Origin: Sulfitobacter sp. EhC04
GTDB lineage: Bacteria; Pseudomonadota; Alphaproteobacteria; Rhodobacterales; Rhodobacteraceae
Length of the DNA: 64,000 nt
Reading direction: 5' to 3'
NCBI RefSeq assembly: GCF_001650875.1
Contig: NZ_LXYI01000019.1
Coordinates: forward strand, 1-64,000
Under the pieces are notes generated by a model. It had not been told where the DNA came from. It ran no database searches and saw nothing but the letters and a program-made list of their open reading frames with translations. This document shows, in pieces, positions 887 to 39,202 of the stretch (within the stretch, counting starts at the first letter, position 1; every line of letters starts with the position of its first letter). Both the position numbers and the translations under genes were made by a program.

Positions 887-905
887 AGGGGTGTGGGGGG
901 AAAGT

Positions 906-955
906 TCCCTATCATCTTGATCTGACGGTGAAGGATGGTGGGTCGTGAGAGGCTC
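906..955 (-). repeat. 50-bp direct repeat shared with the tRNA-Val(UAC) 3' end
   Basis: These 50 bp are identical to 2724-2773, and 49 of them to 2613-2661. The shared block covers the acceptor and part of the T-arm of tRNA-Val(UAC) plus about 30 bp of its downstream flank. Identity is perfect here although the tRNA sequence beyond it has decayed. That pattern fits an attachment-site core or recent recombination. The three copies frame a lower-GC islet. Confidence 0.8.
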
Positions 956-1013
956 AAACGCCAGACATCTTCGGTTTTAACGAAGTGTCTATCCCAATCT
1001 GCATAGGTCGACC
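936..1013 (-). pseudogene. Degenerate tRNA-Val copy
   Basis: Read on the minus strand, this matches the functional tRNA-Val(UAC) at 2754-2829. The 3' CCA, acceptor and anticodon stem are recognisable. The anticodon loop reads UUAAAAC, so the anticodon is lost, and the D-arm and 5' acceptor strand no longer pair with the 3' side. It is therefore a pseudo-tRNA, about 1.8 kb from the intact gene and in the same orientation. Confidence 0.65.
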
Positions 1014-2489: not shown

Positions 2490-2580
2490 CTAGATCCGCA
2501 CGGGCAAGATGCTCGGCGTGAAGTGATCTAAAGCCACAAGTTACATCAGTTTGGAAGCGGTCGTTGCCACATCCAAAGCG

Positions 2581-2707
2581 GTGCGCGTCGGTCGGGCCTG
2601 CAAGGGAAAGCGTCCCTATCATCTTGATCTGACGGTGAAGGATGGTGGGTCGTGAGAGGCTTGTACTCCCGACCCAGAGTGCCGCACAGCGGCGCGCGTC
2701 GGTTGGG
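2581..2707 (-). repeat. Truncated tRNA-Val 3'-end copy with hairpin linker
   Basis: On the minus strand, about 33 nt of the tRNA-Val(UAC) 3' end, including CCA, and about 50 nt of its downstream flank are repeated with a period of 111 bp relative to the intact gene. The copy has two mismatches in the T-loop. It is joined to the upstream unit by a linker at 2668-2707. In gene orientation the linker reads a left arm, GACGCGC, the hairpin GCCGC-TGT-GCGGC, ACTCTG, then a right arm GGTCGGG that belongs to the tRNA sequence. A third linker begins at 2596 but breaks off after GACGCGC at 2583. No functional tRNA can form here. Confidence 0.85.
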
Positions 2708-2753
2708 CCTGCAAGGGAAAGCGTCCCTATCATCTTGATCTGACGGTGAAGGA

Positions 2754-2829
<76 letters not shown>

Positions 2830-4432: not shown

Positions 4433-4501
4433 GAAAAATGGTGGGTGATAAGAGATTTGAACTCCTGACCCAGAGTGCCCGCAGGGCGCGCGTCGGTCAG
4501 G
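4433..4501 (-). repeat. Truncated tRNA-Val(CAC) 3'-end copy with hairpin linker
   Basis: A 37-bp stretch (4433-4469) is identical to 4542-4578 in the intact tRNA-Val(CAC) locus, 109 bp away. It holds the 3' third of the tRNA with CCA. In gene orientation it is preceded by left arm CCTGACC, GACGCGC, hairpin GCCC-TGC-GGGC, ACTCTG and right arm GGTCAGG. This is the same linker design as at the tRNA-Val(UAC) and infC loci. The two 7-nt arms are perfectly complementary, and the right arm is mostly tRNA sequence. Confidence 0.85.
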
Positions 4502-4547
4502 TTCTCAGGATAAACGCGGCCTATCCGCCTGAACTAAGGTAGAAAAA

Positions 4548-4622
4548 TGGTGGGTGATAAGAGATTTGAACTCCTGACATCTTCGATGTGAACGAAGCGC
4601 TCTACCACTGAGCTAATCACCC
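4548..4622 (-). tRNA. tRNA-Val (anticodon CAC)
   Basis: A complete 75-nt cloverleaf with CCA encoded at 4548-4550. The acceptor pairs GGGUGAU with AUCACCC, the D-arm is GCUCAGUGGUAGAGC, the anticodon loop is UUCACAU and the T-loop is GUUCAAA. It differs at many positions from the tRNA-Val(UAC) 1.8 kb away, so the two are separate isoacceptors. Both have a truncated 3'-end copy on the downstream side. Confidence 0.95.
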
Positions 4623-35297: not shown

Positions 35298-36233
35298 TCA
35301 GAGGTTCAGCGCCTCGCGGATTTTTTCCAAAGCCACTTTCAGCAGTTCCGGATTGTCCTGCGCCGCTTTCAGACCTGCGGTGAGGGTGGTCTTTTGCAGG
35401 GTGCCCAGATCGGACGCCTCGACCATCTCGCTGACCTTGTCGAGGTCGAAGCCTTCCACTGTCAGCAGTTCATCCACCATTGACGGCTCAACGCCCTCGA
35501 CGCCAGCGGCAGCCTCTGCTTCCGCGGTTTCGCCGGTTGTGGCATCGGCTGTTGCTTCTGCCGCGTCGGTGGTTGCCTCTGCTGCGGTTTCCGCTGTCTG
35601 CTCTGTGCTGTCGGCAGCGGCCTCTGCGGCTTGCTCCGTTGTCTCGGCCGCGCTATCTGCGGCGTCGGCTGTTGCGTCCGCAGCATCTTCGGCTGCTTCG
35701 GCTGTGTCTGCGGTGGTATCCGCAACCGCATCGGCAGTGTCGGAAGCCGCTTCAGCGGTTGCCTCGGCAGTGTCAGAAGCCGCGTCTGCGGTTGCATCGG
35801 CAGCGTCAGAGGCCGCGTCGGCGGTAGCATCCGCCGCATCGGCAGCGGTGTCGCCCGCCGCATCCGCCGCATCGGTTGCCGCTTCGGTTGTGGCCGTCAC
35901 GGCGTCCGAGGTCGCCTCGGCGGCATCGCTGGCCGCGTTCTCGACTGCCTCAACAGCCCCTTCGGTCGCATCCGCAATCGCTTCACCGGCGGCACTCGCG
36001 GCGTCTGCGGTCGCATCAACGGCATCGCTTACCGCGCCCTGCACCGCGTCAGCGGCCTCACCAGCGGTTTCGGAAGCATTGTCCAGCGCTTCGGGCGCAT
36101 TGACCGTTTCGGAGGCCTCGCTTGCCGCTTCGGAGGCGTCATTGGCCAGTTCAGATGGTGACTTGCCAGAGTACAGCATGTAGCCGCCGACGGCGACAAG
36201 TGCCGCGACAATGATCCAGATCAGGTTTTTCAT
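35298..36233 (-). CDS. Membrane-anchored Ala/Thr/Asp/Glu-rich repeat protein
   Basis: A 311-residue protein in three parts. One membrane segment at the start is IWIIVAALVAVGGYMLY. About 215 residues follow made almost only of Ala, Asp, Glu, Thr and Ser in irregular units such as ADAADATADAASD. A C-terminal domain of about 65 residues (VDELLTVEGFDLDKVSEMVE through EKIREALNL) looks folded. The middle would form long acidic helices, resembling LEA-like or coiled-coil spacer proteins. No family was recognised. The second ATG of a close pair (36233) has GAGGG 7 nt upstream. The nucleotide sequence is itself repetitive, so length variation between strains is likely. Confidence 0.8.
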   Translation of the reverse strand: MKNLIWIIVAALVAVGGYMLYSGKSPSELANDASEAASEASETVNAPEALDNASETAGEAADAVQGAVSDAVDATADAASAAGEAIADATEGAVEAVENAASDAAEATSDAVTATTEAATDAADAAGDTAADAADATADAASDAADATADAASDTAEATAEAASDTADAVADTTADTAEAAEDAADATADAADSAAETTEQAAEAAADSTEQTAETAAEATTDAAEATADATTGETAEAEAAAGVEGVEPSMVDELLTVEGFDLDKVSEMVEASDLGTLQKTTLTAGLKAAQDNPELLKVALEKIREALNL

Positions 36234-36424: not shown

Positions 36425-36985
36425 ATGACCACCATCGCTCGCAGACCTCATAACGCGCCACCGCAACGTGATACCGGACCGCGCGTCAACGAAAACATAC
36501 GTTCCCCGGAAATCCGCCTGATCGGCGCAGATGGCGAAAACGTCGGCGTTGTGACGCCCGCCCGCGCCATGGATATGGCCGAAGAGGCCGGGCTGGACCT
36601 GGTCGAGATTTCGCCCAATGCCAACCCGCCGGTCTGCAAGATCATGGATTTTGGCAAGTTCAAGTACGAACAGCAAAAGCGCGAATCCGAAGCCCGCAAG
36701 AAACAGAAAATCATCGAGATCAAAGAGGTCAAGTTCCGTCCCAACACGGATACCAACGACTATGATGTCAAGATGCGCAATGTCTTCAAGTTTCTTGAGA
36801 ACGGCGACAAGGTCAAGATCACCCTGCGTTTCCGGGGCCGCGAGATGGCGCACCAGAACCTCGGCCGCGAGTTGCTGGAACGGGTGGCAGAGGACACCAA
36901 GGAGCATGGCAAGGTCGAGAACTTCCCCAAGATGGAAGGCCGCCAGATGGTCATGCTGATCGGGCCCCTGCCTAACAAGGCATGA
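36425..36985 (+). CDS. infC: Translation initiation factor IF-3
   Basis: A 186-residue IF-3 that binds the 30S subunit and checks start-codon pairing. [20 protein letters not shown] and [20 protein letters not shown] are the N-domain; [16 protein letters not shown] is the linker; [19 protein letters not shown] and [14 protein letters not shown] are the C-domain. The ATG at 36425 touches the AAAGGA ribosome site and is badly spaced. The ATC at 36434, 8 nt from that site, may be the real start, matching the rare AUU/AUC starts known for infC. The last ~17 codons are copied twice downstream. rpmI and rplT are not adjacent. Confidence 0.96.
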
Positions 36986-37241
36986 GTTCGGCACAACGTC
37001 GCAACAAAGAGCGGCCTTCTGACGCGCCCGGCAAAGCCGGACTCTGAGAAGGCCGCCAGATGGTCATGCTGATCGGGCCCCGGCCCAACAAGGCCTGAGC
37101 TCGGCACATCGTCGCAACAAAGAGCGGCCTTCTGACGCGCCCGGCAAAGCCGGACTCTGAGAAGGCCGCCAGATGGTCATGCTGATCGGGCCCCTGCCCA
37201 ACAAGGCATGAGTTCGGCACATCGTCGCAACAAAGAGCGGC
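36935..37241 (+). repeat. Tandem 113-bp repeats of the infC 3' end
   Basis: Units start at 36935 (inside infC), 37048 and 37161; the third is cut after about 80 bp. Each carries the last ~17 codons and stop of infC with ~30 bp of downstream sequence, nearly identical. Units are joined by a 33-bp linker: CCTTCT, GACGCGC, the hairpin CCGGC-AAA-GCCGG, ACTCTG, then AGAAGG, the last arm belonging mostly to infC sequence. The same linker core occurs in the two tRNA-Val loci. The final unit continues into the native flank and terminator. Confidence 0.92.
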
Positions 37242-37282
37242 CCCTGCCCGCCAAACAGGCCTTCAGCCCCGACCGAAACGAA

Positions 37283-37342: not shown

Positions 37343-39202
37343 TCAGCGCAGCAACCCGGTGATGTTGCGCACCACTGCGCGGCGGTTGGACGGTTCCGCA
37401 ACAAGCGTCGCGACCTTGAGGTCGGATTCGCCATAGCCCTGGGTCACGAGGTTTTGCGCGGGCACGTTGAAGTACTCCGTCAGCGCCAGGGCCACGGTTT
37501 CGGCCCGACGGTCTGACAGGGCCAGGTTATAGGTGGCACTGCCGACAGCATCGGTATGCCCTTCAACGAGGATCACGGTACGGGGGTCCTGTGCAATCTG
37601 TTCGCGCAGGGCTGTCCCGATCCGTGCCAGGCTTTGGGCCTGTTCCGGCCGGATCGCGGCTGAACCTGTTTCGAACCGCACGGCATCAAGCTCCAGTTGC
37701 GGCGCCAATGCGCGCACCTGCCGGATGTCACGGACCTGACGCAGAGAGAACGTGCGGTTGGTGTCTGCCGCCAACTCGCGTTGCAGCGCCGCACGCAGGG
37801 CCTCTTCGTTCTGGTTGCTCACCACTTCAACCTGCTGCTGCCGGTTCACTTGCGGCAGTTCGTTCACCACGACCTGCTGTTCTTCCACAAGGTCATCGAA
37901 CAACACCACCTGATTGCCATTCTTATCCACGGACACCCGGCGCAATACAGCGCCGTCGCGGGCACGAATGGTGATGATCTGCGAACCGTCCGGCTTGGTC
38001 ACGATGCTGCGGCTGGACCCGTCGTCGAATGTCTGGGTCCGCACTTCGTCACCGGCCTGGCGGATCAGCGCATCTTCGTCCTTCAACACGCGCAGGTCAC
38101 CATTGGGGTTTTCGACCACAACCCGGTCCCCCGACCGGCTGACCACCTTGTCACCGTTCTTGAGCACGGAGCCCACGACAACGGCGCCAAGACCCAAAAG
38201 CAGCGCTTTCTCGAATTTGCTCAATCCGCTGTCGTTGCTGGCGGCGGCAGCCGGTTGATCTCCGGTCACGGCGGTCTGGAATTCCTCGTCGGAGGACCGC
38301 ACGTTTTCCTCGGTGATCTCTTCGGTCACGACCTCGGCATTGCTGCTTTCCGTCTCCGCCGCAGCAGCGGCGGCGGCAATGGCCTGACGTTCGGCTTCGC
38401 GGTCGGCGGCGCGTTGGGCTTCAAGCTCGGCGGCCTGACGATCCGCTTCTGCCTGCGCTTCGGCGGAAAGCGCGGCCTCTGCTTCGGAAGTCGCCTGTGC
38501 ATCAGCAGCAGCCTGTGCATCAGCAGCAGCCTGTGCATCAGCGGCAGCCTGGGCGTCGGCGGCAGCTTGTGCGTCTGCGGCAGCCTGATCTTGCTCGGCC
38601 TGAGTTTGTGCAGCAGCTGCGCTTTCCGCGGCCTGCGCCTCGGCTGCGGCCTCATCCTGCGCGGCCTGCGCCTCGGCAGCAGCCTGGCTTTCCTCTTCCT
38701 GCGCGGCAGCCGCCGCAGCAGCCTGCTCATCGGCAGCAGCTTGTGCATCCGCCGCCGCTTGTGCATCAGCCGCAGCCTGGGCATCCGCAGCAGCTTGTGC
38801 ATCAGCAGCGGCCTGATCCTGCGCGGCTTGGGCATCGGCAGCAGCCTGGCTTTCCGCTTCCTGCGCCGCAGCGGCCGCAGCAGCCTGCTCTTCAGCAGCA
38901 GCTTGAGCATCAGCGGCGGCTTGAGCATCAGCGGCGGCTTGCGCCTCGGCCTCGGACTGGGCCTGTTGCTCTTCATTCGCCCCCTGGGACCGCTCTGTCG
39001 CAGCGGGGTCCTCTTTCATGGCTCGCCGTACAACCAATTCCTCAGCGGACTTCACAGCCTGATCGTCAAACATGCAGGGAAAGGTGACTTCCCCGCCGGT
39101 CAGATCACAGGCCGGGGTTTCGCTCTGTGCAAAAGCGCCGCTCGGCAGGGCCAGAAGCAGGCTCATGCTCAGCGATGTGGTGGATTTGAATAGCGTCTTC
39201 AT
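37343..39202 (-). CDS. OmpA-family protein with long Ala/Gln repeat region
   Basis: A 619-residue exported protein. A signal peptide ends near GAFAQS (residue 26). Residues about 75-270 are low-complexity Ala/Gln/Glu, with blocks of QAAADA repeated in tandem. A hydrophobic stretch FEKALLLGLGAVVVGSVLKN follows near residue 330. The C-terminal OmpA domain (from about residue 500) has VRFETGSAAIRPEQAQSLAR, ILVEGHTDAVGSATYNLALS, RRAETVALAL and SNRRAVVRN, the peptidoglycan-binding residues. It probably ties the envelope to peptidoglycan; the helical arm would span the periplasm. Confidence 0.88.
   Translation of the reverse strand: MKTLFKSTTSLSMSLLLALPSGAFAQSETPACDLTGGEVTFPCMFDDQAVKSAEELVVRRAMKEDPAATERSQGANEEQQAQSEAEAQAAADAQAAADAQAAAEEQAAAAAAAQEAESQAAADAQAAQDQAAADAQAAADAQAAADAQAAADAQAAADEQAAAAAAAQEEESQAAAEAQAAQDEAAAEAQAAESAAAAQTQAEQDQAAADAQAAADAQAAADAQAAADAQAAADAQATSEAEAALSAEAQAEADRQAAELEAQRAADREAERQAIAAAAAAAETESSNAEVVTEEITEENVRSSDEEFQTAVTGDQPAAAASNDSGLSKFEKALLLGLGAVVVGSVLKNGDKVVSRSGDRVVVENPNGDLRVLKDEDALIRQAGDEVRTQTFDDGSSRSIVTKPDGSQIITIRARDGAVLRRVSVDKNGNQVVLFDDLVEEQQVVVNELPQVNRQQQVEVVSNQNEEALRAALQRELAADTNRTFSLRQVRDIRQVRALAPQLELDAVRFETGSAAIRPEQAQSLARIGTALREQIAQDPRTVILVEGHTDAVGSATYNLALSDRRAETVALALTEYFNVPAQNLVTQGYGESDLKVATLVAEPSNRRAVVRNITGLLR

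Follow-up and report, generated by a model that had tools for sequence, protein, structure and literature searches.

Gene-free insertions of about 80-175 bp at the 3' ends of conserved genes in marine Rhodobacteraceae look like a family of very small mobile elements

Repeats that lie downstream of a tRNA gene and include its 3' end occur at tyrT of Escherichia coli, and the palindromic repeats of the REP/RAYT type are short, gene-free and non-autonomous sequences scattered between genes; none of the REP or Y1 elements known to us copies the end of a gene. In the relevant part of PMC4986893, the RtT of E. coli is described as an RNA. Islands in tRNA genes, which enter by means of tyrosine integrases, measure kilobases, and crossovers in the T-stem region are known for them, according to the sections of the Islander description considered here (PMC4383910). 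The same sections state that candidates shorter than 2 kb or without an integrase are discarded, so that inserts of the kind reported below would be missed there (PMC4383910). The attC sites of integrons are marked by use of the bottom strand, which is the active one, and have the core sites RYYYAAC and GTTRRRY and a length of 57-141 bp, in the corresponding sections of PMC3053210.

The analysis of a window of 64,000 nucleotides from Sulfitobacter sp. EhC04 (contig NZ_LXYI01000019.1, positions 1 to 64,000) and of related genomes revealed insertions of about 80-175 bp at the 3' ends of conserved genes in marine Rhodobacteraceae, which look like a family of very small mobile elements. As in tRNA islands as the Islander text portrays them, an incoming copy of the 3' end restores the target, a displaced fragment marks the far end and tandem arrays occur, but here the inserts measure about 81-174 bp instead of kilobases, hold no gene, carry a hairpin linker with a target-matched arm and use at least seven kinds of target. 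With integron attC arrays that lack an integrase they share an imperfect DNA hairpin with a variable tip, a bottom strand that folds best by computed energy and a cassette-like succession, whereas the linker has neither the consensus core sites nor the size nor the integrase, and its arms follow the target gene. Like REP/RAYT repeats, the linker elements are short, gene-free, palindromic and non-autonomous, although they sit on duplicated gene 3' ends and not scattered between genes. The likeness to tyrT (rtT) pointed out in the initial annotation holds for the presence of 3'-end repeats behind a tRNA gene and is otherwise superficial, since no Rfam RtT match was obtained and hardly any G-U pairs occur; protein genes are also targeted here, the covariation is of DNA type and the core is common to many genes. 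To our knowledge, no family joins target-matched arms, a covarying DNA hairpin, the lack of any gene and several unrelated restored targets, and because of this combination the family is rated as new in kind.

In the window, the infC gene (IF-3, 186 aa; 36425..36985, + strand) hosts an array that a tandem-repeat search delimited as 2.7 copies of a 113-bp period at 36935-37242. Copies of the gene end begin at 36935, 37048 and 37161, the repeated part being the last 51 nt plus the trailer: the first is the end of the gene itself (36935-36985), the second, including the stop codon, occupies 37048..37098 (+) and the third 37161..37211 (+), and units 1 and 2 are identical at 108 of 113 positions. 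Linker 1 (37011..37056, +) consists of a left arm (37011-37020), the core GACGCGC-CCGGC/AAA/GCCGG-ACTCTG (37021-37046; E 1.2e-9 with covariance model R1, described below) and a right arm (37047-37056), and linker 2 (37124..37169, +) repeats this arrangement with left arm 37124-37133, core 37134-37159 and right arm 37160-37169. Downstream of copy 3 there is what looks like the native flank followed by a terminator-like hairpin, and the trailer within the 113-bp inserts resembles native flank when compared with that of G285. Short tandem repeats of 18, 36 and 33 bp were also observed on both sides of infC (38493-38941 and 35728-35831).

Both tRNA-Val genes of the window, on the minus strand, display the same design, with 3'-end repeats of period 111 bp for tRNA-Val(UAC) and 109 bp for tRNA-Val(CAC). 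The intact tRNA-Val(UAC) gene (2754..2829) is followed by a body of 46 nt that reaches to the left arm (2708..2753), by a linker (2667..2709; core 2675-2700, GACGCGC-GCCGC/TGT/GCGGC-ACTCTG, E 1.7e-11) and by a displaced copy of the 3' end (2643..2673) identical to the gene at 26 of 28 nt; a second, truncated linker at 2578..2597 retains the left arm and GACGCGC and diverges beyond. At the intact tRNA-Val(CAC) gene (4548..4622), the body, also of 46 nt up to the left arm, occupies 4502..4547, the linker 4463..4503 (core 4471-4494, GACGCGC-GCCC/TGC/GGGC-ACTCTG, E 1.6e-10) and the displaced copy, identical over 28/28 nt, 4439..4469. Thus, the 3'-end duplications annotated initially at these three loci were recovered with their periods of 113, 111 and 109, and the linker layout and hairpin pairing proved to be as described. 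A further tRNA-Val(UAC) fragment, from the anticodon arm to CCA plus 3' flank, lies at 902-993 (-), and together with the array it encloses about 1.6 kb (902-2597, -) with one ORF (1288-2058, +; 256 aa) that gave no Pfam match over the cut-off; a closely similar ORF sits between two arrays in locus L108 (G299:C42). This stretch is probably an ordinary island, of small size, at that tRNA.

The linkers read arm, GACGCGC, variable hairpin, ACTCTG, complementary arm, with a core that takes the form GACGCnC / AnKCTG across genes, and their arms derive from the target (for example CCTGACC/GGTCAGG and GCCTTCT/AGAAGGC). Counted with 7-nt arms, arms and core span 38-43 nt in a set of 49 linkers; the arms at sodB may be longer. 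Pairing is maintained by covariation: in alignment A1, 97.7% of 129 cells were paired, with 28 two-sided changes and none of 500 shuffles as good, and in alignment A4, made up of 22 distinct linkers, two-sided changes appeared in 49 of 302 cells with no one-sided G-U, a pairing level again reached by 0/500 shuffles. Alignments A1, A3 and A4 consist of hand-chosen linkers, and owing to the common descent of the linkers neither these counts nor those given next represent independent events. In the wider set of 49, the 537 arm and stem cells contained 3 G.T and 12 A.C when read on the coding strand. The core itself contributes a pair between left base 6 and right base 2 (L6-R2), which is left unmodelled in R1 and is G-C, C-G or T-A in 40 of 42 distinct linkers, one of these rows being a misaligned truncated linker; in the 49-linker set, selection required this pair, so that its count there holds by construction. 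A C.A mismatch adjoining the stem is fixed in 47/49 linkers and becomes G.T only on the opposite strand, and with DNA folding parameters the bottom strand was the more stable in 47 of the 49 for the intended fold and in 41 when folding was unconstrained. The compensatory changes with almost no G-U, together with the better fold of the bottom strand, indicate that the structure is probably read as DNA, and these features would suit either a site formed by folding of single-stranded DNA or a cruciform; the bottom strand would presumably carry an extrahelical base.

The sequence pattern alone is a poor guide to these linkers, as only 4 of its 7 matches in the genome of EhC04 (GACGCGC-N8-20-ACTCTG) were real and the reversed control gave 4 matches. 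In the motif search in relatives suggested by the initial annotation, the bare pattern showed, over 248 genomes of the family, no clear excess over the reversed control among the matches listed, as judged by eye and without summing, whereas the full structure with its flanking duplication was found repeatedly. In 58 genomes of the genus, real arrays could be recognised by the regular spacing of their linkers, such as the five linkers in G259 and the three in G292 behind tRNA-Ala(GGC), with arrays also in G299 and G285. The covariance model likewise envisaged there was built (R1; 43 positions, 12 linkers, threshold E<=0.01). It matched the loci of EhC04 with E values of 1.7e-11 to 1.2e-9, these same loci having helped to build it, and it matched 22 of 62 Sulfitobacter genomes, including loci outside the training set (e.g., G303, E 2.1e-8, and G275, E 1.4e-8) where the gene-end duplication is present too. 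At least one locus was inspected in each of the 22 carriers, and all of them showed either a duplicated gene end or an array of this kind that was displaced or had decayed; with G250, added through its sodB locus, the carriers amount to at least 23 of 62.

Beyond the genus, a second model (R2) matched 8 of 345 family genomes, EhC04 included, and a linker with a duplicated gene end was found in G070, G049, G240 and G187, that is, in 4 of the 344 other genomes sampled. One tRNA-type pattern searched over 84,980 species genomes yielded 8 stretches, all in Rhodobacteraceae, which add Tateyamaria and an uncultured member of the Rhodobacteraceae to the list, and a third model (R3), run on 385 genomes of the class, found only EhC04 itself and a chance-like match inside a reading frame of G562. 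Matches at random positions and without duplication were not the rule: they are confined to this last one, to the R2 matches in G220, G133 and G244, which fall within unrelated reading frames, and to two weak matches in rRNA operons of G292. All these distribution counts are lower bounds, since the large searches used strict filters.

Seven kinds of target were identified beside duplicated 3' ends, namely tRNA-Val(UAC), tRNA-Val(CAC), tRNA-Ala(GGC), tRNA-Met(CAU), the latter represented by two different genes, tRNA-Thr(GGU), infC and sodB, which bears out the proposal that one element family is common to unrelated genes, a protein gene among them. In the arrays inspected, the linkers lie downstream of the gene and in a single orientation relative to it. 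In tRNA targets the copied part begins near the border between variable loop and T-stem. The start of the copy directly after AAGAT(G), put forward as general, applies to infC and both tRNA-Val genes, where the tRNA copies are preceded by GAAGAT, but not to tRNA-Ala (AGGAG) nor to Met, Thr and sodB, where the preceding bases differ. Just 5' of the T-stem some linkers depart from the gene sequence (AGAC in some Ala, AGTG in Thr and one Met), and these divergent bases place the junction a few bases after CTG. Besides, a second hairpin type was noticed by eye, with conserved flanks of roughly GACAGYG-stem-TCACGAGA within paired arms (L088, L139, L097, L084 and L073); it lies behind tRNA-Ala(GGC) genes and, less strictly conserved in form, in an rRNA operon between tRNA-Ile and tRNA-Ala, and matched no Rfam family.

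A total of 34 tRNA arrays was listed, from which tRNA-Thr of G291 (masked bases), tRNA-Ala of G252 and decayed copies in G250, G269, G296 and G275 were left out. In all of them the gene is intact, and the 61 displaced copies lie in the same orientation; 37 of the 61 show no difference from the gene over 28 nt, the others being changed, as expected for copies that are not needed. The first displaced copy starts 79-88 nt past the gene in 30 of the 34 arrays, covering five kinds of tRNA, the exceptions being tRNA-Val(CAC) of G291, whose first copy fell below the threshold, and three tRNA-Ala arrays in which the copy sits 137-146 nt out, behind apparently native flank. Bodies of different target genes resemble one another more than shuffled sequences would, though weakly: among 490 pairs, p<=0.01 was obtained for 25 and p<=0.05 for 55, vs 24.5 expected at the latter level; the highest similarity, that of tRNA-Val(CAC) in G291 to tRNA-Ala in G275, was matched by none of 20000 shuffles, and three of seven re-tested pairs stayed at <=0.05 after correction for 490 tests. 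Some arrays hold near-identical units, and at one tRNA of G285 two units in succession differ in body but hardly in body length, which points to separate insertions and not to amplification.

The clearest view of an insertion came from sodB, at which G271 carries a clean insertion of 122 bp that its sister genomes G293 and G306 do not have. When compared with the native ends in G293 and G306, the distal gene-end copy of G271 with its flank scored 176 and 178, respectively, the trailer of copy 1 scored only 23 and 22, and copy 1 differs from the native sodB end by one synonymous base. On this comparison, it is the incoming copy that ends the gene, with the native end and its terminator displaced downstream, which runs against the earlier notion of a mechanism that appends gene 3' ends. 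EhC04 has its own sodB array outside the window (G000:C25), with three gene-end copies; the peptide encoded by copies 1 and 2 is the same, their differences being synonymous, copy 3 carries two amino-acid changes, and copies 1 and 3 have a common trailer start. Insert sizes at sodB (loci L159-L183) were 81-86 or 120-122 bp in the 11 loci measured out of 12, copy 1 of G250 going undetected. As observed by eye, the longer class (120-122 bp) holds an extra inverted repeat in the trailer. Among the 28 typed loci of the genus (out of 30, with G274 and G303 dropped as unparsable), 10 carry the element, and its distribution requires 8 changes on the sodB tree vs a shuffled mean of 8.4; this tree is poorly resolved (7/25 inner branches starred), and its well-supported branches force at least 3 changes.

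The inserts, at 81-174 bp, are too short for an integrase gene. The integron integrase model TIGR02249 scored over its cut-off in none of the 62 genus genomes, weaker matches being present in all 62 as well as in 14/14 control genomes, and Y1_Tnp did so in three of the 22 R1 carriers (G000, with one match, G294 and G252), two of them partial. No match to four linker patterns was found in viral contigs, and one tRNA-Val query yielded only gene-end-sized matches among phages and plasmids, as did the infC region among plasmids. Arrays L106 (G260:C6), L107 (G298:C2) and L108 consist of tRNA-Val 3' ends with linkers and no matching intact tRNA in the stretch examined, and are displaced or orphan arrays; they were considered as larger carriers and rejected, as a Pfam scan of 17 of the neighbouring reading frames revealed no site-specific recombinase. 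In G260, where the displaced copy stands without its gene, an IS66 transposase lies less than 1 kb away with truncated genes alongside, so that the locus looks rearranged. Rfam searches of the window (gathering scores) and of nine loci (E<=1) gave nothing beyond tRNA, rRNA and, below threshold, weak matches to other families, with no RtT. In keeping with the initial annotation, which knew of no named family with this core, no Rfam family matched it, and among the open-licence papers listed for a narrow range of terms no title or abstract opening names an element of this kind.

The main rival to a mobile element is local tandem duplication of gene ends, in which slippage or template switching at hairpins would create the copies, recombination would amplify them and homologous recombination, through transformation or gene transfer agents, would spread them between species with no site-specific enzyme. 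We regard it as unlikely, yet as deserving serious attention. The native-looking trailer at infC, the trailer start shared by copies 1 and 3 at sodB of EhC04 and the distance of 137-146 nt to the copies in three tRNA-Ala arrays speak for it and against the element model, and from their sequences these loci appear to resemble local duplications with a linker at the junction; the near-identical units of some arrays point the same way. Local duplication, nevertheless, leaves unaccounted for a conserved core GACGCnC / AnKCTG with compensatory changes at seven kinds of gene, the non-native trailer at sodB of G271, the different bodies of equal length in successive units and the similarity of bodies across targets. 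If it were true, the claim of a wholly new kind would no longer hold.

The downstream position of the linkers in one orientation relative to the gene, together with the strong compensatory changes, would also suit an RNA element, that is, a processing or regulatory hairpin in the trailer of a tRNA or mRNA whose repeats release small RNAs, as is reported for RtT of E. coli; in the same sense, the sodB unit of G271 precedes the native terminator and therefore is probably transcribed, to judge from its position. An RNA role is nonetheless improbable, given the lack of one-sided G-U in the 302 cells of A4 and the few G.T and A.C cells (3 and 12 of 537) in the wider set, the C.A mismatch beside the stem with its G.T only on the other strand, the better folding of the bottom DNA strand and the lack of a fitting Rfam family; moreover, such a role has no need of the copied gene tail. 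The imperfect hairpin with a variable tip and the bottom-strand preference recall integrons, in which the linker would be a true attC and the units very short cassettes moved by an integron integrase, but this is very improbable, as RYYYAAC and GTTRRRY are absent, a linker of 38-43 nt with 7-nt arms contrasts with 57-141 bp, and no integrase passed the cut-off in 62 genomes. It is likewise scarcely credible that REP-like repeats were moved by RAYT or by a Y1 transposase of IS200/IS605 type acting on the hairpin: a hairpin of single-strand type with conserved bases at its foot and the Y1_Tnp match of EhC04 agree with it, whereas the other carriers with such a match are only G294 and G252.

We therefore favour, with a probability of roughly 60%, a family of gene-free, non-autonomous micro-integrative elements that restore the gene they enter and use an attC-like hairpin and a recombinase from elsewhere. 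According to this model, the unit at a tRNA would comprise a body of about 45 nt and a linker (left arm, core hairpin and right arm), usually 79-88 bp, plus a tail copy of about 30 nt; the gene would then end in the incoming tail copy, and its native end and terminator would remain downstream. The linker, folded as single-stranded DNA, may provide the recombination site through its bottom strand, its left arm being presumably matched to the target tail, and the reaction would be performed by a recombinase encoded elsewhere, since an insert that holds no gene must have its enzyme supplied from outside. Arrays would arise by repeated insertion at one gene together with ordinary amplification of identical units. 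The patchy distribution and the synonymous differences would also be explained by transfer through homologous recombination, and the data would be compatible with a mixed history, in which the elements insert rarely, are amplified locally and are spread by homologous recombination. More tentatively, and with doubt on our part, the elements may form a re-targetable minimal system, in which single-stranded DNA folds into a hairpin whose left arm matches the target tail, a recombinase acting in trans inserts an element of about 85 bp at many gene 3' ends while keeping the genes intact, and new targets are gained as the arm changes.

If the existence of these elements is confirmed as true, gene-free inserts of about 81-174 bp that follow the logic of islands would constitute a size class that island searches cannot see. 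Should the left arm set the target, they would represent a natural way of adding DNA behind essential genes without breaking them, and they may offer an origin, open to testing, for repeats of tRNA 3' ends like those in the tyrT operon of E. coli.
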